Assembly (NCBI RefSeq): GCF_028767125.1
Contig: NZ_JAKCWP010000004.1
Span: forward strand, 62,001 to 126,000
From: Chelativorans sp. YIM 93263
GTDB taxonomy: Bacteria > Pseudomonadota > Alphaproteobacteria > Rhizobiales > Rhizobiaceae
Reading direction: 5' to 3'
DNA: 64,000 nucleotides
Both the position numbers and the translations under genes were made by a program. Positions 1,683 to 17,446 of this stretch are shown here, in pieces. The notes under the pieces were generated by a model. It was given only the letters and a program-made list of their open reading frames with translations, was not told the DNA's origin and searched no databases. Each line of letters starts with the position of its first letter. Position 1 is the first letter of the stretch.

Positions 1683-2723
1683 ATGTCTTCACCATTCAGT
1701 TCGCTGCATGTGGTCGACCTGAGCGGATCGATCGCTGGCAATTATTGCAGCCGCTTGTTTCTGGATTTTGGTGCGCAAGTTACGCTGGCCGAACCCGAAA
1801 ACGGCGCGTCCGTGCGTCATGTGCCCCCCTTTGACAAGGACAGGCGCTCCTTGGCGTTTCATCATCTCAACACCGGCAAGCGGGTGGTTGATCTGCCCAA
1901 GTCAAAGGCGGAACTGGCCGATCTGGTTGCCGGAGCCGATGTCGCCATCGTGCCTCAGGGGTTCAAGGACGAGATTGCCAAACTGGCCGGTGACCGGTGC
2001 GTTTGCGTCGAGGTATCTGCCTTTGGTGCGGATGGTCCCTATGCTGGCTGGCAGGCCAACGAGATGGTGCATCAGGCGCTTTCGGGGATGATGTCCAACA
2101 ATGGCGAGCCGGGCAGGGAGCCGCTCTATGGCGTGGGCAACCGCGCCTCCTATGCGGGCGGGGTGGCCGCTTATATCACCGCGATGGTAGGGCTGTTCAC
2201 CAGGGAAGACGACGGGCAGGGCCAGAAGGCGAGTGTCGATGTTGCCGAAACCGCAGCGGCCATGTGCTTTCCCTATGTGCTTCAATATTTCTACAACGGC
2301 ACCAACCGCCGCCGCGGCGATCAGGATATTCCGGCCGGGCAGGTCCTTTGCGAGGGCACCTGGGTGTGCATCTGGATCTATCCCCATCGCTTTGCGGCCA
2401 TGTGCAAGGCGCTTGGTCTGTCTCAGCTGATCGATGATCCGCGTTTTGCACAGGTCGCCGACCGGGTGAAGAACTGGGCGGAAATGTTCGACATCATCCA
2501 GGACCATGTACGCGACGAAGATGCTGAAGACGTCGTCTCGCGTCTTCAGGAGGCCCAGGTCATTTCCGCGTGTGCCTATCGTCCCAGCGAGTTGCTCGAA
2601 AATCCGCATCTGGCTGCGCGCCAGTATTGGGATGGACCCGATGCCCAAGGGCTCCCGCGTTTGGGGGCGCCCTTTCGTCTTTCGCGAATGCCGCGCTCGC
2701 GCGTCAATGAAGTCACAGAGTGA
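1683..2723 (+). CDS. CaiB/BaiF family protein, short paralogue lacking the usual catalytic Asp
   Basis: This 346-residue protein is a class III (CaiB/BaiF) CoA-transferase homologue. Its N-terminus (LHVVDLSGSIAGNYCSRLF) and the DGQGQKASVDVAETAA segment are family features. Family enzymes form an acyl-aspartyl intermediate. When aligned on the GxGQ motif with the next gene, the position that holds Asp181 there is Ser156 here (NRASYAGG). It may therefore be a non-catalytic partner subunit or have another function. A strong AGGAGG site (1673-1678) precedes the ATG. It is the first gene of the operon, and the next start is only three bases after its stop, which suggests the two products act together. 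Reading it as a subunit is inference. Confidence 0.85.
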   Translation: MSSPFSSLHVVDLSGSIAGNYCSRLFLDFGAQVTLAEPENGASVRHVPPFDKDRRSLAFHHLNTGKRVVDLPKSKAELADLVAGADVAIVPQGFKDEIAKLAGDRCVCVEVSAFGADGPYAGWQANEMVHQALSGMMSNNGEPGREPLYGVGNRASYAGGVAAYITAMVGLFTREDDGQGQKASVDVAETAAAMCFPYVLQYFYNGTNRRRGDQDIPAGQVLCEGTWVCIWIYPHRFAAMCKALGLSQLIDDPRFAQVADRVKNWAEMFDIIQDHVRDEDAEDVVSRLQEAQVISACAYRPSELLENPHLAARQYWDGPDAQGLPRLGAPFRLSRMPRSRVNEVTE

Positions 2724-2726
2724 ACA

Positions 2727-3983
2727 ATGCTACCTTTCGAAAACATCCGCGTCGTTGAACTGACGACGGCGTGGGCCGGTCCCATGGCTGGCCGCATTCT
2801 GGCGCACTTTGGCGCTGACGTAACCCATATCGAATCGCCCACACGCACCAACACCTGGCGCACGAACAAGGGCGCCCCATCGCCCGTCAATTACCCTGAT
2901 TTCGATCCCGGCGAGCGGCGATGGGACCGGGTGTTTCTGTTCAATTCCCAGAATGTGAACAAGCGCTCGCTCGCCATCGATCTCAAGGCCGAAGGTGGTG
3001 TTGAAACCGTTCGGGACCTGGTGCTGCAAAGCGATGTGCTGATCTGCAATTTCCGGCCCGGCATGTTGCGGCGGCTGGCGCTCGACTATGAGAGCCTGTC
3101 CAAGCACAAGCCCGAAATCATCGTCGCCGAAATGCCGGCCTTTGGGCTCGAGGGACCCCATTCGTCCTATGCGGCCCTGGGGCCGACAATGGAAATGGCA
3201 GCCGGGATGTCCGCGGCCATCGCCTATCACGACGGCAAGCCGACCGTGACCGGACCGTCCTATCTCGATCCCATCGGCGGCTTCAATGCGGCTGCGGCCA
3301 TCGCGACCGCGCTTTATCATCGGCGCAAGACCGGACTGGGCCAGCATATCGAGGTTTCCCAGGTCGAGGCGGCAATGCAGTTCATCGGCCCGGAGATTCT
3401 CCATGCCGCGGTAGAGGGCAAAGATACAAAGCCTGATGGCAACCGCGTTGCCCATGCAGCGCCACACAATGCCTTCCCGGCACAGGGCGAGGATGAATGG
3501 GTCGTCATTGCCGCACAAACCGACGCGCAGTGGCAAGCACTCTGCGCCGAAATGGGGCAGGCCGAACTGGCCGGGGACCCCCGGTTTGCGGACGTTGGAT
3601 CGCGCAAAGCCAATGAGGACGCACTCGAGCGCATCATCGCCGATTGGACGGGCGCGTTCGACAAACATGAGCTGGCCGCAAAACTGCAGTCGGCAGGCGT
3701 CATCGCCGCACCGGTGAACACGCCTCATGATCTGGCACATTCGGACTATCTCAGGGCGCGCGGATTTTACGCCGAGATCACCCATCCGGTTGCCGGAACC
3801 CATCCCCATCCGGGCTTGCCGTTCCATCTCGAGCGCGCGCCGGGGGACTATCGGCGCTCTGCCCCTGCGTTCGGCGCCGACAATGCCCACCTTCTGGGCG
3901 AAGTTCTCGGGTTCGACTCCGAACGGATCGACGCCATGGTCCGCTCGCGCACCATTGCCGATGCGCCCAACAAGGAGGCTTGA
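2727..3983 (+). CDS. CaiB/BaiF family CoA-transferase
   Basis: This 418-residue class III CoA-transferase is predicted to move CoA from a donor such as succinyl-CoA or acetyl-CoA to a carboxylic acid substrate. Family features are RVVELTTAWAGPMAGRILAHFGADV near the N-terminus, the NVNKRSLAIDLK segment, DVLICNFRPGML, and TGLGQHIEVSQVEAAM. Asp181 in the YLDPIGG stretch sits where the nucleophilic aspartate of formyl-CoA transferase is expected. The length is normal for the family. It follows its short paralogue with three bases between the genes, so a two-subunit transferase is plausible. The substrate cannot be read from the sequence; hydratases and an enolase-superfamily enzyme downstream suggest a hydroxy- or unsaturated acid. 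Confidence 0.88.
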   Translation: MLPFENIRVVELTTAWAGPMAGRILAHFGADVTHIESPTRTNTWRTNKGAPSPVNYPDFDPGERRWDRVFLFNSQNVNKRSLAIDLKAEGGVETVRDLVLQSDVLICNFRPGMLRRLALDYESLSKHKPEIIVAEMPAFGLEGPHSSYAALGPTMEMAAGMSAAIAYHDGKPTVTGPSYLDPIGGFNAAAAIATALYHRRKTGLGQHIEVSQVEAAMQFIGPEILHAAVEGKDTKPDGNRVAHAAPHNAFPAQGEDEWVVIAAQTDAQWQALCAEMGQAELAGDPRFADVGSRKANEDALERIIADWTGAFDKHELAAKLQSAGVIAAPVNTPHDLAHSDYLRARGFYAEITHPVAGTHPHPGLPFHLERAPGDYRRSAPAFGADNAHLLGEVLGFDSERIDAMVRSRTIADAPNKEA

Positions 3984-3985
3984 GC

Positions 3986-4792
3986 ATGACTGCGCTCGAA
4001 CACGACTATGCCGTCACGGCCGTTCTGGACGACAACCCCGGCTACAAGGGCAGCGTGCACGAGGATTCGGTCGCGCGCGCCCAAGGTTTCCGCGCCGCGT
4101 TGATCCCGGGGGCCTTCGTTTATGACTATGCAACACGGCTGGCGACCCGCGCCTGGGGCGTCGAGTGGCTGGCACGGGGTGCCATTGCGGCCCGGTTCCG
4201 TCGCCCGGTGTATGATGGCGATGAGCTTGTCGTTAAGGCGACACCTGCCGGGACATTCGAAGGCGGCCCCAAGGTCGATGTCACCATCACCAATGCGGAG
4301 GGCGAGCAGGTTCTCGTGGGCTGGATGGCCCTTGCGGATTCGCCGCCTTCGGTACCCGCTGTCGAGGCATTGGCATTCCATCCCTTTGCCACGCCAAAGC
4401 CCGAGCTGCGGGTGGAAGACCTTGCCCACGGGCTCGAGTTCGGCACAGAAGACCGCGTACTGACTGCCCAGGATATAGCGGACTCCCGCACCGCCATGGG
4501 CAACACCGAGGCAATCTACGATGATGGATTGGCCCATTCGGCATGCATGGTCCGGCTGACCATGCGCGATGTCCTGACCAGCTACAAATTCCCGCTCGCG
4601 CCGGTGTTCACCGAAGTGGAAACACGCAACTGCGCGCCGCTCAAAGCTGGACGCCGGATCCAGACGGCAGCGCAGATCCTGGACGTGTTCGAGAGCAATG
4701 GCCGGCATTATTTCAAGAGCGAGGAATATCTGGTCGCCGATGGCACCGAGATTGTCGCCCGTCACATTCGCACCAACCTGATCGCAGGATGA
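3986..4792 (+). CDS. MaoC-like double-hotdog protein, probable acyl-CoA hydratase/dehydratase
   Basis: This 268-residue protein has the length of a double-hotdog fold. A segment near residue 40 (ALIPGAFVYDYATRLATRAWG) and FRRPVYDGDELVV resemble hotdog dehydratases. The canonical R-hydratase Asp/His signature is not obvious, so catalysis is inferred from fold and context. The ATG at 3986 is chosen over a TTG at 3980 because AAGGAGG (3972-3978) is correctly spaced for it. It starts two bases after the preceding CoA-transferase stop. Together with the next gene it would supply hydration or dehydration of a CoA ester. Related 260-290-residue MaoC proteins act in itaconate and mesaconate metabolism, but identity with those is not shown. 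Confidence 0.7.
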   Translation: MTALEHDYAVTAVLDDNPGYKGSVHEDSVARAQGFRAALIPGAFVYDYATRLATRAWGVEWLARGAIAARFRRPVYDGDELVVKATPAGTFEGGPKVDVTITNAEGEQVLVGWMALADSPPSVPAVEALAFHPFATPKPELRVEDLAHGLEFGTEDRVLTAQDIADSRTAMGNTEAIYDDGLAHSACMVRLTMRDVLTSYKFPLAPVFTEVETRNCAPLKAGRRIQTAAQILDVFESNGRHYFKSEEYLVADGTEIVARHIRTNLIAG

Positions 4793-4811
4793 CCAGCAAG
4801 GGGCTCAACTG

Positions 4812-5240
4812 ATGCAAGTCAAGCCAGACGATACAATCACTGTCGCCAAGACCGTCAGCGAATTCGATGTCTACCAGTTCGCGGGACTGTCGGGCGATTT
4901 TTACGAGGCGCATGTCAACCAGGCCTTGATGGAAAAGTCGGCCTTCGGTGAGCGGATTGCCCACGGGGCGCTGCTGGTGGGGTTCATGTCGGCCGCCGGC
5001 ACGGCGCTGATCGCTCTCGTGCGTCAGCGCGGCGACCAGTCTACGCCCGTATCGCTGGGCTACGACGGCATCAAATTCGTCGAACCTGTGCGGTTCGGCG
5101 ACACGGTCACCGTTCGTTACACCGTTGAAAGTCTTGATGTCGAGCGGCATCGCTCGACCGCCGCAATCACTGTCACAAATCAGCACGACCGGACCGTCGC
5201 GGTGGCCAAACACATCATGAAATGGTTGCCCAAGGATTGA
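4812..5240 (+). CDS. MaoC-family (R)-specific enoyl-CoA hydratase-like protein
   Basis: This 142-residue single-hotdog protein has the hydratase-2 type motif: FAGLSGDFYEAHVNQALMEK places the expected catalytic Asp29 and His34 six residues apart, followed by FGERIAHGALLVG. Such enzymes add water across trans-2-enoyl-CoA or catalyse the reverse reaction. It is the second hotdog protein in the operon. The second copy of the palindromic operator lies 14 bases beyond its stop, so transcription may be re-initiated or blocked there. Confidence 0.82.
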   Translation: MQVKPDDTITVAKTVSEFDVYQFAGLSGDFYEAHVNQALMEKSAFGERIAHGALLVGFMSAAGTALIALVRQRGDQSTPVSLGYDGIKFVEPVRFGDTVTVRYTVESLDVERHRSTAAITVTNQHDRTVAVAKHIMKWLPKD

Positions 5241-5253
5241 TTTATTTTTCATT

Positions 5254-5267
5254 ACATCCGGATGCAC
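5254..5267. promoter_or_regulatory. Second copy of the LacI-type operator, inside the operon
   Basis: TACATCCGGATGCA matches the operator at 1638-1651 with one mismatch in the left half-site; the right half-site is identical. It lies in a 101-base gap between the hydratase and thioesterase genes, the largest gap in the first half of the operon. This suggests an internal regulated promoter or a second repressor contact for looping. Confidence 0.65.
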
Positions 5268-5307
5268 CATGCGCTAGGTTTCTGAGGGGAGAGGGAGGAG
5301 ATCGCCA

Positions 5308-5355
5308 ATGAATGTGACGACGCCAAACATGTGCGTGGTCCATGGCCCGTCGTAG
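5308..5355 (+). other. Possible 15-codon leader ORF overlapping the thioesterase start
   Basis: An ATG at 5308 follows a very good ribosome site (GGGAGGAG, about 7 bases upstream) and opens a frame of 15 codons (MNVTTPNMCVVHGPSS, then TAG at 5353). It ends 11 bases after the thioesterase ATG at 5342, which itself has a poor ribosome site. This arrangement fits a leader peptide that couples translation to the next gene. It could also be a chance ORF beside a mis-assigned start. Confidence 0.3.
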
Positions 5356-5791
5356 TCCGAGCTCGCGTTCGGCCTTTGACACATTCGTTACGATCACGCC
5401 GAGATGGAACGATATCGATGTCTTCGGCCACGTGAACAATGCCGAATTCTACGCCTGGTTTGACACTGCCGTGCTGACCGTCCTGCACCGGCTTGATGCT
5501 GTGGCAGCAGAGGGCAGCGCCCATGCAGCCCTTGTGGTCGAAAGTGGCGCGCAGTTCTTTGCCCCGGTCCTGTTCACCGACACGGTTGAAGTCGGTCTGT
5601 CCGTTGACAGGATCGGCACCAGTTCAGTCACCTACAAGCTGGGTGTGTTTGCAAACCAGGACGACACAGCGGCGGTAGAGGGCGGTTTTACCCATGTGTT
5701 CGTAGATCGCGCAACCCGGCGGCCCGTGCCCATTCCCCAGACCGTTCGGAGCGCCTTTGAAACGCTCATGCCAGAGAAAGCCAGCCAATGA
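5342..5791 (+). CDS. Acyl-CoA thioesterase, 4-hydroxybenzoyl-CoA thioesterase (hotdog) family
   Basis: This 149-residue hotdog thioesterase is predicted to hydrolyse an acyl-CoA to free acid and CoA. The diagnostic segment is PRWNDIDVFGHVNNAEFY, with Asp26 as the likely catalytic residue. FAPVLFTDTVEVGLSVDRIG and GGFTHVFVDRATRRPVPIP are the usual later strands. The start has a weak ribosome site but is preceded by a well-supported 15-codon reading frame. The stop overlaps the start of the enolase-superfamily gene by four bases (ATGA). In the pathway it could release an end product or rescue CoA from a dead-end ester. Confidence 0.8.
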   Translation: MARRSPSSRSAFDTFVTITPRWNDIDVFGHVNNAEFYAWFDTAVLTVLHRLDAVAAEGSAHAALVVESGAQFFAPVLFTDTVEVGLSVDRIGTSSVTYKLGVFANQDDTAAVEGGFTHVFVDRATRRPVPIPQTVRSAFETLMPEKASQ

Positions 5792-6897
5792 CACGTCTTC
5801 CGATCGACAGCATTGAAACATTGCGCCTGCGGTGGAACCCAAGCGATCCATCCAGCCGCTACACAGCCTTGGTCCGGATCAAGTCGGGTGATCTCGTGGG
5901 ATACGGCGAAGCGTCGCCAATCCTGGGCGGCGAGCACTCGCTGGGCATCGTCGATCGCGACATCGCTCCTGAGCTTTTGGGCAAGGATGCTCATGATACC
6001 AGCGTTCTTTATGACCAGTTGCTCCACAAATGCGTCAAGCTGGGCCCAGAGGGTGCGGTCACCGGCGCGCTGGCGGCAGTGGATATTGCGCTTTGGGACA
6101 TCAAGGGCAAAGCGCTGGGCCTTCCGGTCTACAAGCTGCTGGGCGGAGCTTGGCGGACGCAGATCCCGTTCTATTCATCGATCGGCGGCAATCATGGCCG
6201 CACCGTCGATGAGACCGTGCGCGCTGTCGAAAAGCGCTTGATGGCTGAAAAGCCTGCGGCCATCAAAATTCGCTGGGATGGGGATCGGACCACCCAGGAC
6301 GCCGATCTTGCGGGCGATATTGCCAAGGCAAAGGCGGTGCGCAAACTCGTCGGAGACGATTTTCCGCTCGGGTTCGATGCCAATAACCTCTACAGCGTCG
6401 GTGGCGCCATGCGGGTGGGTCGGGTGCTCGAGGATTTGGGGTACCTCTGGTTTGAAGAGCCCGTTCAGCACTATGACATTCACGGAATGGGCGAGGTCGC
6501 GCAAAGGCTCGACATCACGGTTTCCGCCGGGGAGCAGTCCTACACCACTCAGGCGGTCCTGGATCTGATCCGGGCCGGGGTCCGGATGGTTCAGCCCGAT
6601 ATCATCAAGATGGGCGGGATTACCGGCCTGATGAAATGCGCTGCATTGTGCCAGGCGCATGGTGTCGAGCTGGTACCCCACCAGACGCAGCCGATTGTGG
6701 GTCACATGGCCAACCTGCATGTGCTCGCCACGATCATGCACTTTACCAAGCCTGCCGAGTACGCAGACCCGTCCGGCAGGATGGACATAGCCTTCACCGC
6801 CCCACCGAAACCCAAAAACGGATGTTTCAGGCTCGATGACCGTCCAGGTCTCGGGTTGGAGGTGAATACTGCCGAGCTCGATCGGCGGTTGATCTAG
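5788..6897 (+). CDS. Enolase-superfamily enzyme, mandelate racemase subgroup
   Basis: This 369-residue enzyme of the mandelate racemase/muconate lactonizing family abstracts a proton alpha to a carboxylate. Metal ligands are visible at Asp197 (LGFDANN), Glu223 (WFEEPVQ) and Glu249 (VSAGEQS). The K160-x-R162 motif (AIKIRW) and the Asp271-His298 dyad (QPDIIKMGG; LVPHQTQP) place it in the mandelate racemase subgroup, so racemisation, epimerisation or acid-sugar-type dehydration is expected. It overlaps the thioesterase stop and precedes the transporter genes. The substrate is likely the compound imported by that transporter. No characterised member could be matched by eye. Confidence 0.87.
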   Translation: MTRLPIDSIETLRLRWNPSDPSSRYTALVRIKSGDLVGYGEASPILGGEHSLGIVDRDIAPELLGKDAHDTSVLYDQLLHKCVKLGPEGAVTGALAAVDIALWDIKGKALGLPVYKLLGGAWRTQIPFYSSIGGNHGRTVDETVRAVEKRLMAEKPAAIKIRWDGDRTTQDADLAGDIAKAKAVRKLVGDDFPLGFDANNLYSVGGAMRVGRVLEDLGYLWFEEPVQHYDIHGMGEVAQRLDITVSAGEQSYTTQAVLDLIRAGVRMVQPDIIKMGGITGLMKCAALCQAHGVELVPHQTQPIVGHMANLHVLATIMHFTKPAEYADPSGRMDIAFTAPPKPKNGCFRLDDRPGLGLEVNTAELDRRLI

Positions 6898-6926
6898 CAA
6901 GACCAGCAACATGGGAGGAGACCTTT

Positions 6927-8519
6927 ATGCGGATATCAAGAAGAACTTTGCTCAAGACCGGTGCTGCCGGCATGGCCAGTACCGTGTTCCTGCCTGGACT
7001 TGTCCGTGCACAGAATGCGGATGACGTTATTCGCCTCGCTGTTGCAGCAGGCGGACCCCGCTCGGCCGATCCCAACCAGACGACACAAGGTGCCGACAAC
7101 TGGACGACCGAACAGATGTTCGAGCAACTGGTACGGCCGCCCGACGGACTGTTCGCTGCTGCCGACGACGAGTATGTGCCCACGCTTGCGACGAGCTGGG
7201 AAACCTCTGAGGACGGGCTGACCTGGACGTTCCAGCTCCGCGAAGGCGTGCAGTTCCACAAGGGCTATGGTGAGATGACCTCCGAGGACGTCGTCCACAG
7301 CTTCGATCGCGCGCGCTTCGATGGCGTCAATACCGCCGTTTTCGGCAACATCGAGAGCGTTGAAGCCACAGGTCAATACGAAGTCACGTTCCGGCTGCGG
7401 GGGCCGGATCCGTTGTTTCTGGGATCAACGATTTTCCAGAACGGGGCATCGATTGTCTCCAAGAAGGCCGAAGAGGAAAAGGGCGACAGCTTCAACACCG
7501 ACTCGATCGGTACCGGTCCTTATGTCCTGGACTCCTTTGACAGCTCGAACGGCACCCGTTTGACTCGTCACGATGATTACTGGGATGGTCCGGCCAATAT
7601 CAGCAACGTCGAAGTTGCCTATATTGCCGACACCACGGCCCGGACGCTGGCTCTGATCGCTGGCGAAATCGACATCATCGAAGCGGTCCGTGCGCCGGGC
7701 TGGATCGACCAGATCCGTCAGCGCGATCCTGATCTGCGTGTGGATATGACCAATCCGGGGTCGTTCATGACCCTGCATATCAACCTCAACCAGGAGCCGT
7801 TCGACAACCCGATGGTTCGCAAGGCTATCGCCACCGCAATCGATTCTGCTGCGGTCGCCAACGCTCTTGCCCCGATGGGTATGCCCACGGTCACGCTCTC
7901 CCCGCCGCACTACCCGACAGGTTGGGCGCGCGAGGAGCTGCCTGAAGAGCTGCGCTACGACTACAACCCCGATACGGCCCGCCAGATGCTGGCAGACGCC
8001 GGCTTTGCCGACGGCATCAGCTTCGAGGCCAACGTCAGCCAGCGCGAGGACTATCGCTCGACAATGCTGATCGTGCAGGAACTCATGCGTCCTGCAGGTA
8101 TCGACATGCAACTCAATGTGATGGACCACTCGGCCTATCATGGGGCAAACCGTGAAGACCAGAACACCCTGGCTCTCCATGCTGCCAGCTATCCGCCCGT
8201 GCCGCTCGACTACATGAGTCGGTATCTCTCGAGCGGGGCCGAAGTGAAGGCAGACGGAACCGGTGGGGGCAACTATTCCCACTATGGCGTGGCCATTCCC
8301 GGTGTTGACGACGAGCTCGCTCAGATGCAAGTCGCGACGAGCTTTGATGAGTACGTATCGATCGGCCGTGAAATCGAACGCAAGGTGCAGGACGACCTGC
8401 CCGTGCTCGGTGTGATGACCCTCGGGTTCACCGCGGTGCGCAGCGCCCGTGTGGATCTCGGATACGAAGTAGACGGTGGCTACGCTCGCTGGCGTTTCCA
8501 CAAGGCAACCAAGTCCTAA
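6927..8519 (+). CDS. ABC transporter substrate-binding protein, peptide/opine/nickel family (SBP family 5)
   Basis: This 530-residue extracytoplasmic binding protein is of the DppA/OppA type. Its N-terminus carries a twin-arginine signal (SRRTLLKTGAAG, with an AQN cleavage region near residue 29), so it is probably Tat-exported folded to the periplasm. Family blocks include TEQMFEQLVRP, FQLREGVQFHKGYG and TSEDVVHSFDRARF. It begins a five-gene transporter set (binding protein, two permeases, two ATPases) placed within the catabolic operon. The operon's CoA enzymes argue that the ligand is an organic acid or conjugate rather than a peptide. Confidence 0.92.
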   Translation: MRISRRTLLKTGAAGMASTVFLPGLVRAQNADDVIRLAVAAGGPRSADPNQTTQGADNWTTEQMFEQLVRPPDGLFAAADDEYVPTLATSWETSEDGLTWTFQLREGVQFHKGYGEMTSEDVVHSFDRARFDGVNTAVFGNIESVEATGQYEVTFRLRGPDPLFLGSTIFQNGASIVSKKAEEEKGDSFNTDSIGTGPYVLDSFDSSNGTRLTRHDDYWDGPANISNVEVAYIADTTARTLALIAGEIDIIEAVRAPGWIDQIRQRDPDLRVDMTNPGSFMTLHINLNQEPFDNPMVRKAIATAIDSAAVANALAPMGMPTVTLSPPHYPTGWAREELPEELRYDYNPDTARQMLADAGFADGISFEANVSQREDYRSTMLIVQELMRPAGIDMQLNVMDHSAYHGANREDQNTLALHAASYPPVPLDYMSRYLSSGAEVKADGTGGGNYSHYGVAIPGVDDELAQMQVATSFDEYVSIGREIERKVQDDLPVLGVMTLGFTAVRSARVDLGYEVDGGYARWRFHKATKS

Positions 8520-8531
8520 AAGGAGCGTCGC

Positions 8532-9467
8532 ATGGCGAGATATATCTTCGTCAGAGCATTGGACTCGATACCAACGATCTTTCTCGTTCTTACGTTGGTT
8601 TTCATCGCCATGCGCATTCTTCCGGGCGATCCGGCCATTGCGGTTCTCGGTGAGAACGCACGGCCGGAAACCATTGCGCTGTTCCGCGAACGGTTCGGTC
8701 TCAACGATCCGATCTGGCTTCAGTATCTCCACTTCCTGCGGGACGTGGTAACGCTCGATTTCGGCACATCCTTGATGAAGGGTGTGCCGGTCGGCGACCT
8801 GATTTTGCGCAATATTCCCTATACGATCGAACTCACGATCGCCGCGATGATCATCGGCATTTCCGGCGGGATTCCGCTCGGCGTCTGGGCGGCAATCAAC
8901 CGCAACAAGGCTCCCGACAACGGCTTTCGTGTCTTTTCGCTCATCGGCTATGCCGTGCCCGATTTCTATCTCGGCGCCATGCTGCTGATCATTTTCGCGC
9001 TGAACCTGGGCTGGTTTCCCATCACCGGGGCGGGCGTGGAATTCACCGATCGGCTCCATCATATCGTCCTGCCGGCGGTGACCCTGGCGATGCTCAAGAT
9101 CGCCTTTCTCGGTCGGCTCTCGCGCACGTCGCTGCTCGAGGTCATGGGGCGCGACTATGTCCGCACGGCACGCGCAAAAGGGGCCCGCGAGCCTCGGGTG
9201 ATCTACCGGCACGGCCTGCGCAATGCCCTTCTGCCGCTTTCGACTGGCCTAGGCCTCTCGGTGCTGACGACCCTTTCGGGTTCGGTGGCCGTCGAGTTGG
9301 TCTTCAACCGCCCGGGTATCGGCCGGTTGCTGATCGATGCCATTTCCGAGCGCGACTATCCGGTCATTCAAGCTGGGGTGATCGTGTTCGCCGCAGCAGT
9401 GGTCATTGTAAATCTGCTTATGGAAATTGTTTACGTCGTGGTTGATCCGCGCATCAAGGTGAAGTGA
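8532..9467 (+). CDS. ABC transporter permease (DppB/OppB type)
   Basis: This 311-residue inner-membrane protein has the family N-terminus (ARYIFVRALDSIPTIFLVLTL), the MRILPGDPA motif after the first membrane helix, and the EAA loop near residue 210 (GRDYVRTARAKGAREPRVIYRHGLRNALLP). Several hydrophobic segments follow. An AAGGAG-type site lies just before the start, 12 bases after the binding-protein stop. It pairs with the next gene to form the transmembrane channel. Confidence 0.93.
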   Translation: MARYIFVRALDSIPTIFLVLTLVFIAMRILPGDPAIAVLGENARPETIALFRERFGLNDPIWLQYLHFLRDVVTLDFGTSLMKGVPVGDLILRNIPYTIELTIAAMIIGISGGIPLGVWAAINRNKAPDNGFRVFSLIGYAVPDFYLGAMLLIIFALNLGWFPITGAGVEFTDRLHHIVLPAVTLAMLKIAFLGRLSRTSLLEVMGRDYVRTARAKGAREPRVIYRHGLRNALLPLSTGLGLSVLTTLSGSVAVELVFNRPGIGRLLIDAISERDYPVIQAGVIVFAAAVVIVNLLMEIVYVVVDPRIKVK

Positions 9468-10339
9468 TGAGTGCAGTTGAAAAAATCGAGCTGCCCAAAG
9501 AACCAAGTGCTGTGGGCAACCTGGTCAAGGCGATCCTGCTCAAACCGGCAGGGCTGATCTCAGCCGTCGTGGTGCTGATCTTTGCGTTCATTGCGATTTT
9601 CGCGCCAGTTCTGGCACCCTATGACCCGCTGGCTCAGAGCTTTCTTTCAGTAAACGCCCTGCCCAGCGCAGCCCATTGGCTGGGCACCGACCAGTTCGGC
9701 CGCGATGTGCTCTCGCGTCTGATCTATGGCTCGCGCAACTCGTTGATCATCGGCTTTCTCTCGCCGGTCTTTGCGGCCCTGATCGGGACGACCCTGGGTG
9801 TGCTGGCCGGGTATTTCGGCGGTATCATCGACCGGGTCGTCACCCGGCTTATCGATATGCTCATGGCCTTTCCCGAGCTGTTGCTGGCGATCCTGATCGC
9901 CGCGGCCCTGGGCGGCGGGTTCTGGAACGTGGTCGTGGTGCTCACCGTCGCCTTCACTCCTGGCTTTGCCCGTGTGGCCCGTGCGTCCACACTCTCGGTC
10001 AAGGAGGAACCTTACGTGGAAGCTGCGGTCGCCGCTGGCGTGCGCACGCCGCTGATCATCATCCGCCACGTCGTTCCCAATATCGCGGCACCCGTCGTCG
10101 TGCTGCTCACGCTCTGGACCGCGTCCTCGATCCGGCTTGAAGCCACGCTCAGCTTTCTGGGCATCGGCACGCAGCCCCCGGCGGCAAGCTGGGGCAACAT
10201 CATCCGTGAAGGCCTGTCCAACATTTTCGCGACCTCGTGGCCGATCCTGTCTGCCGGCCTGGTGATCACCATCGTGGTCATGGCGATCAGCATTATTGGC
10301 GACAGCATGCGCGATATTCTCGATCCCGAGATCAACTGA
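9467..10339 (+). CDS. ABC transporter permease (DppC/OppC type)
   Basis: This 290-residue permease has an N-terminal membrane helix followed by YDPLAQSFLS and HWLGTDQFGRDVLSRLIYG, the conserved DppC block. The EAA loop is EEPYVEAAVAAGVRTPLIIIRHVVPN. The ATG at 9467 is preferred because it overlaps the stop of the previous gene as ATGA; a GTG three bases earlier is less likely. Its own stop overlaps the next gene's start, which shows tight coupling of the transporter genes. Confidence 0.93.
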   Translation: MSAVEKIELPKEPSAVGNLVKAILLKPAGLISAVVVLIFAFIAIFAPVLAPYDPLAQSFLSVNALPSAAHWLGTDQFGRDVLSRLIYGSRNSLIIGFLSPVFAALIGTTLGVLAGYFGGIIDRVVTRLIDMLMAFPELLLAILIAAALGGGFWNVVVVLTVAFTPGFARVARASTLSVKEEPYVEAAVAAGVRTPLIIIRHVVPNIAAPVVVLLTLWTASSIRLEATLSFLGIGTQPPAASWGNIIREGLSNIFATSWPILSAGLVITIVVMAISIIGDSMRDILDPEIN

Positions 10340-11349
10340 TGAAAAATTTGCTTAAGATCGAAGACCTGTGCGTCGAGTTCGGGCCTGCCAACAATGCCAT
10401 CCATGTGCTCAACCACGTCAATATCGAGTTGGGTGCAGGCGAGGCAGTTGGTCTGGTCGGGGAGTCCGGGTCGGGCAAGTCGATTACCTCGCTCTCGATC
10501 CTGCGCCTGCTGCCCGAGCCTCCGGCTCGCGTCACCAGCGGAAAGATTTGGTTCGAGGATCGCGACTTGGGCCAGTTGCACAAGTCCGAGCTCCCCACGA
10601 TCCGGGGGCGCGACATTGCAATGATCTTCCAGGAGCCGATGAGTTCGCTCAATCCGGTGATGAAAGTCGAAGCGCAGATCTCCGAAGCGCTTATGCTGCA
10701 CAACCCGTCCATGAAGAAGGCAGATCGTCGAGCCCGTGCCGTCGAGTTGTTGACCCTCGTGGGCATTCCCGATCCCGAAGAGCGGCTCAATTCCTACCCG
10801 CACGAGTTCTCCGGCGGCATGCGTCAACGCGTGATGATCGCTATGGCTCTGGCCTGCGACCCCAAGCTCTTGATTGCCGATGAGCCGACCACGGCGCTGG
10901 ACGTGACCATCCAGGCCCAGGTGCTGGACCTGATGCGCCAGTTGCGCAACAAGTTCAACACCGCTGTGCTGCTGATCTCGCACGACCTCGGGGTGGTCGC
11001 CGATGTGTGCGACCGGGTTGTGGTCATGTATGCGGGCCATATCGTGGAGGATGCCGAGATCTCCTCGCTGTTCTCCCATCCCCAGCACCCCTACACCAAG
11101 GGCCTTCTAGCCGCGGTGCCCTCGCTGTCAGACACACGCGAGCGGCTTTACCAGATCCCCGGTTCGGTCCCGGCGCCCGGCACCATCAAGAAGGGCTGCC
11201 CCTTTTACGAACGTTGCGAAGTGCGCAAACCGGTTTGCGCCGAACAGATGCCGCCCATGGAGACCATCCGGGAGCGCCACAGGGTCGCCTGCTGGGTTGC
11301 CCAGGAGGCCGGAAATTCGGCCCAGAGCACTGAGAAGGAAAAAGTATGA
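10339..11349 (+). CDS. ABC transporter ATP-binding protein (DppD/OppD type)
   Basis: This 336-residue ATPase powers the transporter. It shows Walker A (GESGSGKS), the signature motif (YPHEFSGGMRQRV), Walker B with the D-loop (LLIADEPTTALD) and the H-loop (LISHDLGVVADV). The C-terminal oligopeptide-transporter domain carries a Cys-rich stretch (CPFYERCEVRKPVC) typical of this family. The ATG overlaps the preceding stop (ATGA), and its stop overlaps the next ATG in the same way. Confidence 0.94.
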   Translation: MKNLLKIEDLCVEFGPANNAIHVLNHVNIELGAGEAVGLVGESGSGKSITSLSILRLLPEPPARVTSGKIWFEDRDLGQLHKSELPTIRGRDIAMIFQEPMSSLNPVMKVEAQISEALMLHNPSMKKADRRARAVELLTLVGIPDPEERLNSYPHEFSGGMRQRVMIAMALACDPKLLIADEPTTALDVTIQAQVLDLMRQLRNKFNTAVLLISHDLGVVADVCDRVVVMYAGHIVEDAEISSLFSHPQHPYTKGLLAAVPSLSDTRERLYQIPGSVPAPGTIKKGCPFYERCEVRKPVCAEQMPPMETIRERHRVACWVAQEAGNSAQSTEKEKV

Positions 11350-12341
11350 CGGGCCCGGTAGTTCGCGCAGACGATTTGGGCAAACTGTTTTCGGACCGCG
11401 CCGGGCTGTTCCAGGCCCAGTCTGAGACGGGCGTGCGTGCGGTCGACGGTGTTTCCCTCGAGATTGCGCATGGCGAAACGCTCGCTGTGGTGGGAGAGTC
11501 CGGGTGCGGCAAGTCCACCCTTGGACGCCTGCTGCTGCGGCTGATCGAGCCGTCGAGCGGCAAGGTGTTTCTCGAAGGCGAGGAAATTACAGGGCTGACG
11601 CGCAGCCAAATGCGCAAGTTCCGCCAGCGCGCCCAAATGGTCTTCCAGGATCCCTATGGCTCGCTCAGCCCCCGGCGCACCGTCGCGCAGATCATCTCCG
11701 AGCCCCTCGAAGTGTTCGGGCTGGTCAAGAACCGCGCCCAGCAGCGTGACCGCGTGGCAGAGATGCTCACCCAGGTCGGTTTGCCAACAGCGGTGATGGA
11801 CCGCCGCCCGCGCCAGTTCTCGGGCGGGCAACGCCAGCGCATCTGTATTGCCCGTGCCATTTCGGTTGACCCGAGCTTTATCGTGGCGGACGAGCCGGTC
11901 TCTGCGCTCGATGTGTCGATCCAGGCGCAGGTGATCAACCTGATGCAGGACCTCCAGCGCGAAAAGCAGTTCTCGTTCCTGTTCATTGCCCACGATCTGG
12001 CGGTCGTTCGGCACATGGCCGACCGCGTTGCCGTGATGTATCTGGGCCGGATCGTGGAGATGGGCACCAAGCGCTCGATCTATACCGCGCCCCAGCATCC
12101 CTACACCCAGGCCCTGCTTTCGGCGGCTCCTGAAGCCAAGGTCAGCCGGGGCAATGGCCGGATTGTGCTGCAAGGCGACGTTCCCAGCCCGCGCAGAGTG
12201 CCCCCCGGGTGCAGCTTTCATACCCGCTGCCCCATCGCGCAGGACATCTGCCGCAAGGAGCGCCCCCCGCTCGAGACGAAAGGCGATGGCCAGGCCGTGG
12301 CCTGCCATTTCGCCAAGCCGTTCCCCATCCCCGTGGGATGA
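11346..12341 (+). CDS. ABC transporter ATP-binding protein (DppF/OppF type)
   Basis: This 331-residue second ATPase has Walker A (GESGCGKS), signature ([16 protein letters not shown]), Walker B ([12 protein letters not shown]), H-loop ([12 protein letters not shown]) and the C-terminal Cys motif ([14 protein letters not shown]). It completes the five-gene importer and overlaps the upstream ATPase by four bases. Confidence 0.94.
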
Positions 12342-12403
12342 TTCTGGATCGCCGATCCCGGACAGGGCAGATTGAGATTGCCCGAGGCCTTTGGAGCACT
12401 GCA

Positions 12404-13732
12404 ATGACCGTGAGATATCTCAAACGTGGAAAGCCGCTTGCCGAGCGCGTGCAAGACGATGCGTCGATCCGCGGGACCGTCCAGACCGCCATCGCCGATA
12501 TCCGCGAGCGCGGGGACGGTGCCGTCCGGGAGATGGCTGACAAGTTCGATCACTATACCCCCGAGAGCTTCAAACTGAGCGCCGAGCAGATCGAGGCGCT
12601 GATTGCCCAGGTTCCCGCCCAGGCGCTCGACGACATCAAGTTCGCCCAGGACCAGGTCCGCCAGTTTGCGCTCGCCCAGAAGGACGCCCTGCGCGACGTG
12701 GAAGTGGAAACCCGGCCCGGTGTTATTCTGGGGCACAAGAATATCCCTGTCCAGTCGGTGGGCTGTTACGTGCCCGGCGGCAAGTTTCCCATGGTGGCCT
12801 CGGCCCATATGTCGGTGCTCACCGCCGCCGTGGCGGGCGTGCCGCGGATTGTCGCCTGCACGCCGCCGTTCAATGGCCAGCCCAGCGCGCCAGTCGTCGC
12901 TGCGATGCATTTGGCCGGTGCCCATGAAATCTATGTGCTCGGCGGTATTCAAGCGATCGGGGCCATGGCCACCGGAACCGATACGATCGATGCTGTCGAC
13001 ATGATCGTGGGCCCGGGCAATGCATTTGTCGCCGAAGCCAAGCGACAGTTGTTCGGGGAGGTAGGCATCGACCTGCTCGCAGGTCCCACCGAAACCATGG
13101 TGATCGCCGATGAGACGGTGGATGGCGAATTGTGCGCCACAGACCTGCTGGGCCAGGCCGAGCATGGCTACAACAGCCCCGCAGCGCTTCTGACCACCTC
13201 TGAAGCGCTGGCCCAATCCACGCTTTCTGAAATCGACAGGCTGCTGGAAATTCTGCCCACAGCCGAGACTGCTGGGGCGAGCTGGCGCGACTATGGGGAA
13301 ATCATTGTCTGCGACACCCATGAGGAGTTGCTCGGGTTGGCCAACCAGATGGCCTATGAGCACGTCCAGGTCATGACCGACCGCGACGAATGGTATCTGG
13401 ACAATATGACCAGCTATGGCGCCCTGTTTCTGGGACCGCGCACCAATGTTGCCAATGGCGACAAGGTCATCGGGACCAACCACACCCTGCCAACCCGGCG
13501 CGCCGGCCGTTACACCGGCGGGTTGTGGGTCGGCAAGTTCCTCAAGACTCACTCCTACCAAAAAATCACGACCGACACCGCAGCGGCTGAAATCGGAGCC
13601 TATGGGTCCCGATTGTGCATCCTGGAAGGTTTCGTCGGTCACGCCGAGCAATGCAACATCAGGGTCCGCCGCTACGGCAAGGGCAATGTGGCCTATGGCG
13701 CGCCAGCACAAGACCCTGCAAGCCCAAGCTAG
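12404..13732 (+). CDS. Histidinol-dehydrogenase-like NAD-dependent dehydrogenase (HisD paralogue)
   Basis: This 442-residue protein is homologous to HisD, which oxidises an alcohol to a carboxylate in two NAD-dependent steps. HisD blocks are present: [31 protein letters not shown] and [20 protein letters not shown] followed by DLLGQAEHG. The later [17 protein letters not shown] region departs from biosynthetic HisD, and the gene sits in a catabolic operon rather than a his operon. Such paralogues include sulfopropanediol 3-dehydrogenase (HpsN), so oxidation of a primary alcohol or diol to an acid is the favoured reading. The ATG at 12404 has GGAG about 8 bases upstream. Confidence 0.85.
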
Positions 13733-13782
13733 AGCAAAGACGCCCTAGCGGAAATCAAAACGCGAATTTGGAGACACGCTCA

Positions 13783-14769
13783 ATGTACAAGGCTCTCGTC
13801 GTTGAAAAGGATGATGCCGGAAAAACCAGCGCATCGGTCCAAGAGCTTACCGATGATCGCCTGCCCGAGGGCGATGTGACGGTGGCCATCGAACACACCA
13901 CGCTCAACTACAAGGACGGCTTGTGCGTCGGATCGGGTGGCGGGTTGGTGCGCGAGTACCCCCACGTCCCAGGCATCGACTTTGCCGGCACGGTGCTGGA
14001 GTCCCAAAGCGATCGCTACAAGGCGGGCGACAAAGTCCTTCTGACAGGCTGGCGCGTGGGCGAGACCCATTGGGGTGGCTATGCCCAAAAGACCCGGCTC
14101 AATGCCGATTGGCTCGTGCCGCTCCCCGAAGGGCTCACGACGCGCCAGGCCATGGCCATCGGAACCGCAGGGCTGAGCGCGATGCTGGCCGTCATGGCGC
14201 TCGAGCGCAATGGGGTCAAACCGGGCGATGATGTTCTGGTCACCGGCGCATCGGGCGGAGTCGGCTCGGTTGCCACTTCCATTCTGGCCAATCTGGGTTA
14301 TGCCGTGGCCGCAGTCACCGGCCGCCCGGAAAATGCTGATTATCTCAAGGCGCTGGGCGCGAGCACAATCGTTCCGCGCGAGGAAATCAACGAAACCATC
14401 AAAAAGCCCCTCGAAAAGGAAAGCTGGAACGGTTGCGTCGATGCCGTCGGCAGCGCGATGCTGGCGCGAGTTCTCGGCCAGATGAAATATGGCGGCACGG
14501 TCGCAGCAATCGGGCTGGCAGGGGGCGCCGATTTGCCCGCGACCATGATCCCTTTCCTTCTCCGAGGCGTCAGCCTTGTAGGCGTCGACAGTGTGCACCA
14601 GCCGTTTGAAAACCGTCAGCAAGCCTGGGCCCGGTTGGCACGGGACCTGCCGCTCGAAAAACTCGAGCAGACAATTCAGACCGCGACGCTCGCCGATTTG
14701 CCGGATCTGGGACGCCGCATTCTAAAAGGTGACGTTCAGGGCCGTGTCGTCGTCGACGTTAACGCCTGA
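13783..14769 (+). CDS. acuI: MDR-family oxidoreductase, acrylyl-CoA reductase (AcuI/YhdH)-like
   Basis: This 328-residue zinc-free medium-chain reductase resembles AcuI/YhdH, which reduces acryloyl-CoA to propionyl-CoA with NADPH. Visible features are the N-terminal MYKALVVEKDDAGKTSASVQ-type start, TTLNYKDGLCVGSGGGLVR, PGIDFAGTV, and the nucleotide-binding site VTGASGGVGSVATSILANLGY. The ATG at 13783 follows a short gap after the HisD-like gene. In this operon it would remove the electrophilic enoyl-CoA made by the CoA-transferase/hydratase steps. Propionyl-CoA would then connect to the methylmalonyl-CoA epimerase gene at the window start. The exact substrate is inferred. Confidence 0.8.
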   Translation: MYKALVVEKDDAGKTSASVQELTDDRLPEGDVTVAIEHTTLNYKDGLCVGSGGGLVREYPHVPGIDFAGTVLESQSDRYKAGDKVLLTGWRVGETHWGGYAQKTRLNADWLVPLPEGLTTRQAMAIGTAGLSAMLAVMALERNGVKPGDDVLVTGASGGVGSVATSILANLGYAVAAVTGRPENADYLKALGASTIVPREEINETIKKPLEKESWNGCVDAVGSAMLARVLGQMKYGGTVAAIGLAGGADLPATMIPFLLRGVSLVGVDSVHQPFENRQQAWARLARDLPLEKLEQTIQTATLADLPDLGRRILKGDVQGRVVVDVNA

Positions 14770-14789
14770 TCACGATTGGATAGTGCGCA

Positions 14790-15797
14790 ATGGACAGCAC
14801 CAGAGTCGTCGCCCTGAGCCAGGACATGCCTTTCAGCCAGACCCTTATGGACCGGCTGTACGCTGCGATTGAGCCAGATACTATCATCCCATTTGATCCG
14901 AAGGATCGGGGGAGCCGAAGTGCGGCACTTCGGGATGCCGAGATTGCCATCATAGCGGGGGATACGCTCGAAGACGATGTGCTCGAAGCGCCCAAGTTGC
15001 GCTGGGTTCATTGCGATCACGCCGGGCTCAACCGCTCGGCGCGTCCCGAAGTATTTGCCAAAGGCCTCATCGTAACAGGCGCGGCCGGCCGCTCGGCTCC
15101 GGCGCTTGCCGAACATGCGATGATGTTCTGCCTGGTGCTCAGTTCGGGTTTTACACTTTTCCAGGATGCTCAACGCCGCCATGAATGGTTCCGCGGGCCC
15201 GAACTCGACCAACTTGGGGCCCTCTACGGCAAGACCATGGGGATCGTCGGGCTCGGCCATACCGGGTGCGAACTGGCAAAGCGGGCCAAGGCGTTTGGCA
15301 TGACGGTGCTGGGCTATCGCAGACGCAGGGCGGAGAGGCCGCCGGGGGTGGATGTGGTATTCTGCGCTGATGAAGGGCAGGGCATCTATGAGTTGCTGGA
15401 GAAGTCAGATTGTGTGGTGCTGGCCATCACCCTTTCGGACGCTACCCACCACCTCATCAATGCCGAGGCCTTTGCGCGGATGAAACCATCGGCTTTCATC
15501 ATCAATCTGGCCCGGGGCGAAGTCATAGACCGAGACGCCTTGATTGCGGCACTTGAGACAAAGCAGATTGCCGGTGCGGGCCTGGACGTCACCGATCCCG
15601 AGCCCCTGCCGGTCGGCGATCAGCTTTGGGACACCCCCGGGGTTCTAATAACCCCCCACTTCAGCGCCCCGGTCGCCGACCGCCGTGACCGTTCGGTCGA
15701 TATCATCATCGAGAATTTGGCGCGCTACAAGGCCGGCCAGGATCTGATCAATGGGCTGACACCCGAAGACATCTGGACGCCCGATAACCGAGGCTGA
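14790..15797 (+). CDS. D-isomer-specific 2-hydroxyacid dehydrogenase
   Basis: This 335-residue NAD(P)-dependent enzyme interconverts a 2-ketoacid and a D-2-hydroxyacid. The Rossmann motif is GIVGLGHTGCELAKRAKAFG near residue 151. The substrate-binding Arg is in INLARGEVIDRDALIAAL, followed by GAGLDVTDPEPLP, and the C-terminal catalytic His lies in TPHFSAP. It is the last gene of the operon, about 20 bases after the acuI-like gene, and no clear terminator follows. It may process a hydroxy- or keto-acid made by the enolase-superfamily or HisD-like enzymes. Confidence 0.88.
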   Translation: MDSTRVVALSQDMPFSQTLMDRLYAAIEPDTIIPFDPKDRGSRSAALRDAEIAIIAGDTLEDDVLEAPKLRWVHCDHAGLNRSARPEVFAKGLIVTGAAGRSAPALAEHAMMFCLVLSSGFTLFQDAQRRHEWFRGPELDQLGALYGKTMGIVGLGHTGCELAKRAKAFGMTVLGYRRRRAERPPGVDVVFCADEGQGIYELLEKSDCVVLAITLSDATHHLINAEAFARMKPSAFIINLARGEVIDRDALIAALETKQIAGAGLDVTDPEPLPVGDQLWDTPGVLITPHFSAPVADRRDRSVDIIIENLARYKAGQDLINGLTPEDIWTPDNRG

Positions 15798-16523: not shown

Positions 16524-17446
16524 CTAGGACGCAGCCGGCGGCATCGGCTTTTTCGGCGTCCCGTGAAGGAGCGGATCGCCCGGTGCAAGTTCCTCTACCG
16601 TCTCGCCCATGGGCTGCGGATCGGGCAGATATTCGAACTCGCCCTTTCCATCAGGCGAAGGACCCTTGGCCCAGCTGCCTTGCTCGCTCGCCGTACCGTC
16701 GGAGCAGTTCCAGAACTGATACGCCACCTCAGATTTCTCGCGCTCCTGCGGGAAGGTCTGGGAACGGGTGTCTTGTCCAGTCCCTCCGCCTCGAGCTCGG
16801 CGATAGCCGCCAGCCACTGATTTTGGTGCATGGTGTCGCGGGCGATCAAGAAGGAAAGCATGTCGCGCACGCCGGGATCTTCGGTCATTTCATAAAGACG
16901 GCAGACCTTGAGCCGTCCCTGCGACTCGGCCGTGACGTTGAAGCGGAAGTCGGCGAGCAGGTTTCCCGAAGAGATCGTGTAGCGCGCGTTCCAAGGATAT
17001 CCGACGCTGTCGGTCGGGGTGGCACCCTGGCCAGAAACGATCGCATGCTGCGGGTTCATCCCGGAAACGATGACGTCCTCAAGGCGTGAGCCACCAAGCA
17101 CCGCGCCGACAGCGGAATTCTTGGCTGCGTCTTCCCTGGCTTCAACCGGCGAGGTCTCCAGAAGCCGCGCGATCATGGTGGCAAGCATTTCGACATGCGC
17201 GATCTCCTCGGTGCCGATGTCGAGTATCATGTCGCGGTATTTTGCCGGTGCGCGGCAGTTCCATCCCTGGAACAGACACGTCATCATGACGCTAATTTCG
17301 CCCCACTGGCCTCCAAGGACCTCCTGGAGCTGTTTGGCGTAGACGGGATCGGGCCGGTCGGGCTTGGCATTGTATTGGAACTGGTTCGTCGGAAGAACGT
17401 TGCTTTCTCCTTCTGGTGGACGGCCGCGAGGCTCGGGCCACGGCAA
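16524..17446 (-). pseudogene. Manganese catalase, frameshifted near the C-terminus
   Basis: The first frame encodes a dimanganese catalase (ferritin-like fold, converts hydrogen peroxide to water and oxygen): RPDPVYAKQLQEVLGGQWGE, GTEEIAHVEMLATMIARLLE and ISSGNLLADFRFNV carry the family's Glu/His metal-ligand pattern. At about 16760-16762 a run of three G (plus strand) seems to lack one base. Beyond it the expected tail (FPQEREKSEVAYQFWNCSDG … DPLLHGTPKKP) continues in another frame to 16524. The unshifted frame runs to 16595 with unrelated sequence. No good ATG is seen at the usual N-terminus (expected just before FQYNAKPD), so the start is also uncertain. Either a real disabling mutation or a sequence error is possible. 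Confidence 0.82.

Follow-up and report, generated by a model that had tools for sequence, protein, structure and literature searches.

A LacI-associated gene block with a proposed role in the import and CoA-dependent degradation of a carboxylic compound recurs mostly in alphaproteobacteria

What compound is handled, and under which control, by a block of genes in Chelativorans sp. YIM 93263 that combines CoA-transferase-like and hotdog-fold proteins with an enolase-superfamily enzyme and an Opp-type importer? The block lies at positions 1683–15797 of a 64,000-nucleotide stretch (contig NZ_JAKCWP010000004.1, positions 62,001 to 126,000; hereafter the window, to which all coordinates refer). Open reading frame (ORF) prediction with Pfam and NCBIfam scans placed 14 genes here, all on the plus strand and next to a divergent gene for a LacI-family repressor, with 13 intergenic gaps of −4 to 101 bp, 12 of them no longer than 62 bp. 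The initial annotation had described 13 same-strand genes with overlaps or short gaps; gene content and coordinates agree with ours, and the count had to be raised to 14. We propose, with a probability of roughly 0.45, that the locus is a two-unit LacI regulon through which a carboxylic compound, most likely a polyhydroxy acid of the sugar type or a glycoside carrying one, is taken up and degraded in CoA-dependent steps.

A three-row enolase alignment was used to scan 84,980 species genomes, and of the 565 relatives the 80 best loci were retained, so that the counts given here favour close relatives; with two loci from a search of the same family and the window itself these made 83 enolase rows, 82 of them outside the window. 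Loci outside the window were typed from mechanical gene calls, with identity thresholds that differ by gene, as T1 (CaiA, the first of two CoA-transferase-like proteins, present), T2 (no CaiA, an aldehyde dehydrogenase (ALDH) gene of cluster c6), T3 (LacI, with neither) or other, which gave 24, 14, 5 and 39 loci respectively. The divergent LacI gene, the second CoA-transferase (CaiB), the double-hotdog protein (MaoC2), the enolase-superfamily enzyme (ENO) and the substrate-binding protein (SBP) were present in 24/24 T1 loci, and permeases B and C in 23/24. The neighbourhood search in other genomes that the initial annotation had suggested recovers the block, and its description of a locus that looks catabolic and encodes an importer is supported. 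Around this core, the AcuI-type reductase occurred in 11/24 T1 loci, the D-2-hydroxyacid dehydrogenase (2HADH) in seven (on the same strand in five), the MaoC-type hydratase and the 4HBT-fold thioesterase in the same five, and the HisD-like dehydrogenase in three, these absences not being firm because several loci end at 10 kb or at contig ends. The HisD-like, AcuI, 2HADH, MaoC and thioesterase genes are accessory: the simplest loci (for example L017, L018 and L026) consist of the CoA-transferase pair, a hotdog protein, the enolase and the importer, and, apart from the window, L023, L087/L159 and L161 carry every accessory function. AcuI and the HisD-like enzyme, which had been counted as parts of the pathway, are indeed in the block, as optional members of it.

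Other searches gave a similar picture. ENO was found at E ≤ 1e-60 in 3/297 genomes of the same family, the window's genome among them, and CaiB at E ≤ 1e-120 in 6/397 sampled genomes of the order, again with the window's included; in all five others CaiB lay in this cluster, where the operator described below has two or more sites per locus at one mismatch (two of the five were contigs already in the enolase scan, L159 and L162 being contigs of L087, from a Devosia isolate, and of L014). CaiA (E ≤ 1e-50) and MaoC2 (E ≤ 1e-15) picked out the same 3 of 72,556 plasmid records, each with the enolase gene. A plasmid of Neorhizobium galegae HAMBI 540 has the genes for CaiA, MaoC2, the enolase and the SBP. 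Two T1 records are titled outside the alphaproteobacteria, L018 as Mycobacterium sp. and L019 as a cyanobacterial metagenome-assembled genome. In a quick enolase tree made without bootstrap, the 25 T1 rows fell inside a set of 32 (25 T1, five T3, two other; Shimodaira–Hasegawa-like approximate likelihood ratio test, SH-aLRT, 90), itself nested in a 33-row set that adds one T2 row (SH-aLRT 80), neither fork reaching 95; the window's enolase was sister to two Paracoccus loci (97). In the five T3 loci, which have LacI, the enolase and the importer, the flanks examined contain no CaiA, CaiB or MaoC2; other enzymes of those hosts may therefore be able to use the enolase product. T2 clusters join the enolase and importer to Ldh_2, an iron-dependent alcohol dehydrogenase (iron ADH) and ALDH, and the three annotated clusters read on plasmids also encode an FAH-family hydrolase; loci of the other type have varied gene contexts (16 neighbourhoods read). 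These three sister clusters (L091, L098 and L099, on Agrobacterium/Rhizobium plasmids) encode GntR, Ldh_2, iron ADH, ALDH, enolase, Opp proteins and FAH hydrolase, and none of them has the LacI-type operator at one mismatch.

How is the block controlled? The LacI-family gene lies at 525–1538 on the minus strand (PF00356 and PF13377 above cut-off, scanned as ORF 525–1607), its start being likely the ATG at 1538, with the longest ORF running to 1607. A palindrome, TTGCATnCGnATGCAA, recurred in related loci in the gap on the LacI side. When up to one mismatch was allowed, it occurred 50 times in the 29 T1 and T3 loci (591,725 bases), ten first-order simulations yielding 0, 0, 0, 1, 0, 0, 2, 0, 0 and 1 copies, and there were no copies in the 53 T2 and other loci, even at two mismatches. 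All 50 copies sit either between LacI and the first structural gene or directly 5' of an enolase or thioesterase gene, 24/29 T1/T3 loci have at least one such site, and the LacI helix-turn-helix is conserved among related loci. Of 24 other genomes searched whole, 23 had a match at one mismatch and 20 had zero-mismatch sites, all of the latter inside the locus stretch by their coordinates. In the window we found the motif twice: operator 1, TTGCATCCGGATGCAT (1637–1652, one mismatch to TTGCATnCGnATGCAA), 5' of CaiA, and the weaker operator 2, TTACATCCGGATGCAC (5252–5267, two mismatches), within the 101-bp gap between the MaoC and thioesterase genes, the widest of the block.

Several results count against reading these sites as the operators of the locus. 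L030, L031, L033, L034 and L037 (5/29 T1/T3 loci) lack a site at one mismatch, L030 having one match at two mismatches; L031, L034 and L037 have in common a different LacI hinge sequence, and L030 and L033 carry the common hinge. A Bosea plasmid locus (L096) likewise has the core genes without an operator site. At up to two mismatches the window's own genome holds seven matches (two in the window, five outside) versus three for a control pattern, and 4/100 shuffles of the window yield two or more matches at the two-mismatch level of operator 2; the case for the second site therefore comes mainly from its conserved position, the corresponding gap (MaoC–4HBT or MaoC2–ENO) being used in related loci. 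In the 24 other genomes, 11 one-mismatch sites lay off the locus, compared with two for the control pattern (the motif reversed), and it is possible that these off-locus sites are further regulon members. We conclude that the locus is genuine and conserved, and that it is a putative LacI regulon in which repression itself is predicted from the sequence. LacI regulation had been part of the initial annotation and gains from the divergent repressor gene of all T1 loci and the conserved operator. The single operon envisaged there gives way to two putative LacI-controlled units, since the second site lies in the 101-bp gap: CaiA-CaiB-MaoC2-MaoC and thioesterase-ENO-importer-HisD-AcuI-2HADH. A promoter/terminator consensus scan gave match counts close to shuffled means.

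What reaction might the enzyme at the centre of the conserved core carry out? ENO (5788–6897, plus strand; PF13378 and PF02746 above cut-off) belongs to the mandelate racemase/muconate lactonizing enzyme (MR/MLE) group, with both domains and metal ligands Asp197, Glu223 and Glu249. Lys160, Arg162, Asp197, Glu223, Glu249 and Asp271 are kept in 83/83 rows and His298 in 82/83. Racemases of this superfamily have a two-base site made up of KxK plus His-Asp, whereas ENO has K160-x-R162 in 83/83 rows. Arg162 aligns with the Lys of talarate/galactarate dehydratase (2pp0) that we take to be the second base of racemases, and one-base elimination is therefore more likely than racemisation, as judged from the alignment. 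The nearest NCBIfam models are sugar-acid dehydratases, far below cut-off (best 173 bits, cut-off 500), and the best Protein Data Bank (PDB) match is 3n4e/4dwd. The block resembles non-phosphorylative sugar-acid pathways of the talarate/galactarate and fuconate type in combining, within a single regulated cluster, an enolase-superfamily enzyme with an importer and with dehydrogenases, a likeness to which the sister clusters add the FAH-family hydrolase. It differs from them in its CoA-transferase pair, hotdog proteins, thioesterase and AcuI-type reductase, in having no aldolase family match, and in dehydratase scores that are all far below the NCBIfam cut-offs. Two loci, L025 (19564–20760) and L030 (19573–20796), have a second enolase-superfamily gene after CoA-transferase/hotdog genes, with relatives 3t9p, 3t8q, 3tcs and 3u4f.

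The CoA-related part of the core opens the block. CaiA (1683–2723, plus strand; PF02515, 192 bits) and CaiB (2727–3983, plus strand; PF02515, 344 bits) are adjacent class III CoA-transferase paralogues, and they form one long protein in 19/24 T1 loci, the two PF02515 stretches being confirmed in L032. Class III CoA-transferases use a catalytic Asp. CaiB has it as Asp181 (SYLDPIGG), kept within SY[LM]DP in 25/25 rows, and so qualifies as a member by both domain and residue, whereas CaiA, when the two alignments were compared by eye side by side, has no Asp at that place in 25/25 rows and is apparently without the catalytic residue, some CaiA rows having an Asp four residues earlier. Among PDB entries, CaiB best matches a subunit of benzylsuccinate CoA-transferase (9fn0_B, 198 bits). 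That enzyme likewise has two CoA-transferase III subunits, one active and one degenerate; the block differs in having no toluene-pathway genes and in the large sequence distance that the 198 bits reflect. MaoC2 (3986–4792, plus strand; a TTG at 3980, from which the domain scan was run, is an alternative possible start) scores 23.7 bits with PF13452 (cut-off 22) and 20.6 bits with PF01575 (cut-off 27), and we read the order of helices and strands in its model (mean pLDDT, the predicted local distance difference test score, 94) as two hotdog domains. Its Tyr20, His25 and Asp27 are kept in 25/25 rows. In a profile search of 385 genomes of the class, the window's protein scored 4.5e-110 and 10 distant relatives 6e-33 to 3e-50, the neighbours of those 10 giving no clue to function. 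Next to it, MaoC (4812–5240, plus strand; PF01575, 60 bits, above cut-off) has Asp29 and His34 in 6/6 rows, the Asp and His that form the motif of (R)-enoyl-CoA hydratases. The 4HBT-fold acyl-CoA thioesterase (5342–5791, plus strand; PF13279, 66 bits) begins the second putative unit. No crotonyl-CoA carboxylase/reductase was above cut-off in a search of the window's own genome.

Such a pair raises the question whether the CoA steps are themselves the main route, with a branched dicarboxylic acid of the itaconate, citramalate or methylmalate type imported directly and the enolase only isomerising or lactonising a minor form. The composition of the simplest loci and the match of CaiB to an enzyme with an active and a degenerate partner would suit this account, as would four HpcH/HpaI-family proteins elsewhere in the genome. 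The block itself, however, has no HpcH/HpaI-type lyase, a LacI repressor and an Opp-type importer are generally unusual for such small acids, and the five T3 loci keep enolase and importer with no CaiA, CaiB or MaoC2 in the flanks covered; we consider a branched dicarboxylate unlikely. The initial annotation had linked the block to propionyl-CoA through a neighbouring methylmalonyl-CoA epimerase. That link is not supported: the epimerase gene is convergent with LacI and lies outside the block, and no homologue was found at E ≤ 1e-8 in the 86 + 13 other loci searched.

The importer offers a separate line of evidence on the substrate. It comprises a family 5 SBP (6927–8519; PF00496, 247 bits), permeases B (8532–9467; PF00528, PF19300) and C (9464–10339; PF00528, PF12911), and ATPases D (10339–11349; PF00005, PF08352, scanned as ORF 10237–11349) and F (11346–12341; PF00005, PF08352), all on the plus strand. 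Its architecture is that of Opp/agrocinopine-type family 5 importers, the best PDB match of the SBP being 6tfq, followed by weaker matches to AgaA and AccA. Near SBPs (43–58% identity) were found in 16 plasmid records, 16/16 with an enolase gene; a second tier at ~28–33% identity (60 of 89 records listed), a distance that sets the window's SBP apart, includes many Agrobacterium plasmid records. In nine related loci, moreover, a glycosidase-like protein of ~860 residues is encoded, mostly beside the importer genes (T1 L013, L014, L015, L022 and L026; T2 L076; T3 L010; other L035 and L061). It is remotely similar to the NCBIfam alpha-galacturonidase model (1e-13, 50 bits, cut-off 1300) and to BPa0997, 6hze (profile 4e-11), and seven rows were aligned; the gene in L010 (14776–17343) and that in L013 encode proteins with no Pfam match. 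A Shinella plasmid locus has a GHL6/GH42-type protein. The NCBIfam neighbours of the enolase, these glycosidase-like neighbours and the sister clusters together lead us to favour a glycoside or sugar-type acid. The hydroxy or unsaturated acid or conjugate suggested in the initial annotation is possible; the comparative evidence agrees somewhat better with a polyhydroxy acid of the sugar type or its glycoside.

An alternative prompted by the same importer is catabolism of an opine or amino-acid conjugate, in which an N-carboxyalkyl amino acid or a related plant or tumour metabolite would be taken up and the enolase would act as racemase, epimerase or eliminase. The Agrobacterium plasmids among the second-tier SBPs and the sister enolase-Opp clusters on Agrobacterium and Rhizobium plasmids are in keeping with it, as are two second-tier SBPs on Ti plasmids, read as opine-type clusters, that adjoin genes of the octopine/nopaline dehydrogenase family and for FAD oxidoreductases. 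Its standing is lowered by the near SBPs, all of which go with an enolase gene, by the lack of any opine oxidase or opine dehydrogenase family match in the block (Pfam/NCBIfam), by the pointers to carbohydrate in LacI and in the glycosidase-like neighbour elsewhere, and by Arg162, which speaks against two-base racemisation, and an opine-like substrate strikes us as improbable. For a sugar-type acid, too, there are unfavourable points: those two Ti-plasmid clusters; the block has no glycosidase-like gene; no function was found for 3n4e/4dwd, the closest solved relative of ENO; Tyr20 of MaoC2 replaces the usual hydratase Asp in all 25 rows; and the sugar-acid pathways that we know of use no CoA-transferases, so that the CoA steps fit this substrate poorly.

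Do the enzymes at the distal end of the block narrow the choice? The HisD-like dehydrogenase (12404–13732, plus strand; PF00815, 443 bits, scanned as ORF 12209–13732) exceeds the cut-off of TIGR00069 hisD (430 of 243.8 bits), and is one of four PF00815 proteins in the window's genome, another of which scores higher (562 vs 443 bits). Zinc and catalytic-type residues Q251, H254, E319, H320, D353 and H413 are all present, as in the related histidinol dehydrogenases and the dihydroxypropanesulfonate (DHPS) 3-dehydrogenase HpsN of the same family. According to one study (PMC11382572), HpsN has a specific motif, G-R-Y-A/S-H, with a sulfonate-binding His, and HisD has GSAPL; measured against these two motifs, as given there, the window's protein has neither, carrying GKFPM instead, and eight other HisD-like proteins carry GKFPM or GKYPL. 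These data bear on the idea of sulfonate catabolism of the DHPS type, with the HisD-like protein as sulfopropanediol dehydrogenase and the hydroxyacid dehydrogenase acting on sulfolactate. In the PDB, the HisD-like protein most closely matches DHPS dehydrogenases (8v35, 8wwe), and the best score of the sister-cluster Ldh_2, below cut-off, is to L-sulfolactate dehydrogenase; the missing HpsN motif, the absence of a sulfolactate lyase family match among the 14 proteins (Pfam/NCBIfam) and the presence of the HisD-like gene in so few T1 loci nevertheless make a sulfonate highly improbable, and the DHPS pathway was set aside on the motif as described in that study.

The HisD-like group is widespread, with matches at E ≤ 1e-120 in 127 plasmid records. 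A tree of nine rows placed the proteins of the window and L029 together with four homologues from plasmids (100/99) and separately from the proteins of L161 and the Devosia loci, which have GKYPL; the gene's position varies between loci. This suggests that the locus acquired the enzyme at least twice, and such repeated acquisition would argue for a real need of alcohol-to-acid oxidation in these versions. As a hallmark of the pathway the HisD-like gene was discarded, given the widespread group, its 3/24 T1 loci and its recruitment two or more times. Two of four contexts read among the plasmid loci L092–L095, which have HisD-like genes, contain SnoaL-type, SDR, LacI, RraA and sugar-ABC genes. 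The AcuI/YhdH-type enoyl-CoA reductase (13783–14769, plus strand; TIGR02823, 441 bits, scanned as ORF 13615–14769) is above the subfamily cut-off and in this resembles the acrylyl-CoA reductase AcuI; it differs in falling ~7 bits under the AcuI equivalog cut-off (NF051456, 433.1 of 440 bits) and in being present in fewer than half of the T1 loci. The last gene encodes 2HADH (14790–15797, plus strand; PF02826, PF00389). With accessory genes that differ in presence and position, and a HisD-like gene seemingly recruited more than once from a widespread group, the locus might be a general-purpose scavenging cassette in which a shared regulator and importer serve several substrates and not one pathway. 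The invariant core of the T1 loci and the three loci besides the window that carry all accessory functions argue otherwise, and we hold such a cassette to be of low probability.

For a sugar-type polyhydroxy acid or glycoside, the following order of events can be proposed. The repressor would bind operator 1, 5' of CaiA, and operator 2, 5' of the thioesterase-enolase-importer unit, and would probably be released when the substrate or an intermediate appears. The compound would be taken up by the Opp-type importer, and ENO would abstract the alpha-proton and eliminate water to give a keto/deoxy acid. In the window's genome, 2HADH and the HisD-like enzyme may set the oxidation level (keto versus hydroxy; primary alcohol to carboxylate). 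The CoA-transferase pair would then put the acid onto CoA, the hotdog proteins would dehydrate or hydrate the thioester, AcuI would reduce the enoyl-CoA, and the thioesterase might serve in CoA rescue. A more specific version, a CoA-thioester route for a sugar-derived acid, we regard as doubtful: enolase dehydration and terminal oxidation would give a hydroxy-dicarboxylate, a catalytic-plus-degenerate CoA-transferase pair would activate it, dehydration and reduction would proceed as for fatty acids, and the whole would be under a single LacI repressor and operator. Methyl-erythritol derivatives, apiose acids, pantoate and tuliposides were weighed on chemistry alone and are not claimed. A branched-chain 2-oxoacid dehydrogenase operon beside three LacI-enolase-Opp loci (L009, L016 and L089) was not used because it is convergent with LacI.

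Elsewhere the window encodes a manganese catalase (16595–17446, minus strand) and a second protein of the Pfam Catalase family (43568–45052, plus strand), a type III polyketide synthase of the chalcone/stilbene synthase family (20511–21563, minus strand), and a large serine recombinase with resolvase, recombinase and zinc-ribbon domains (58890–60656, minus strand), a possible mobile-element marker.

A literature search found no published assignment of the gene set, its structures or the SBP relatives, in line with the initial annotation's view of the set as undescribed, and what is new about the locus is the way in which known enzyme families are arranged, not the kind of system. It represents a recurring, mostly alphaproteobacterial catabolic system with a single operator sequence, repressor and binding protein and few core enzymes, and this definition makes the substrate question directly testable. 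Solving it would help to assign functions to three protein groups: the enolases related to 3n4e/4dwd, the HisD-like class whose motif sets it apart from both HisD and HpsN, and the MaoC-like family in which the active site is altered. If true, a CoA-thioester route for sugar acids would link carbohydrate and acyl-CoA catabolism, a junction for which we know of no precedent.

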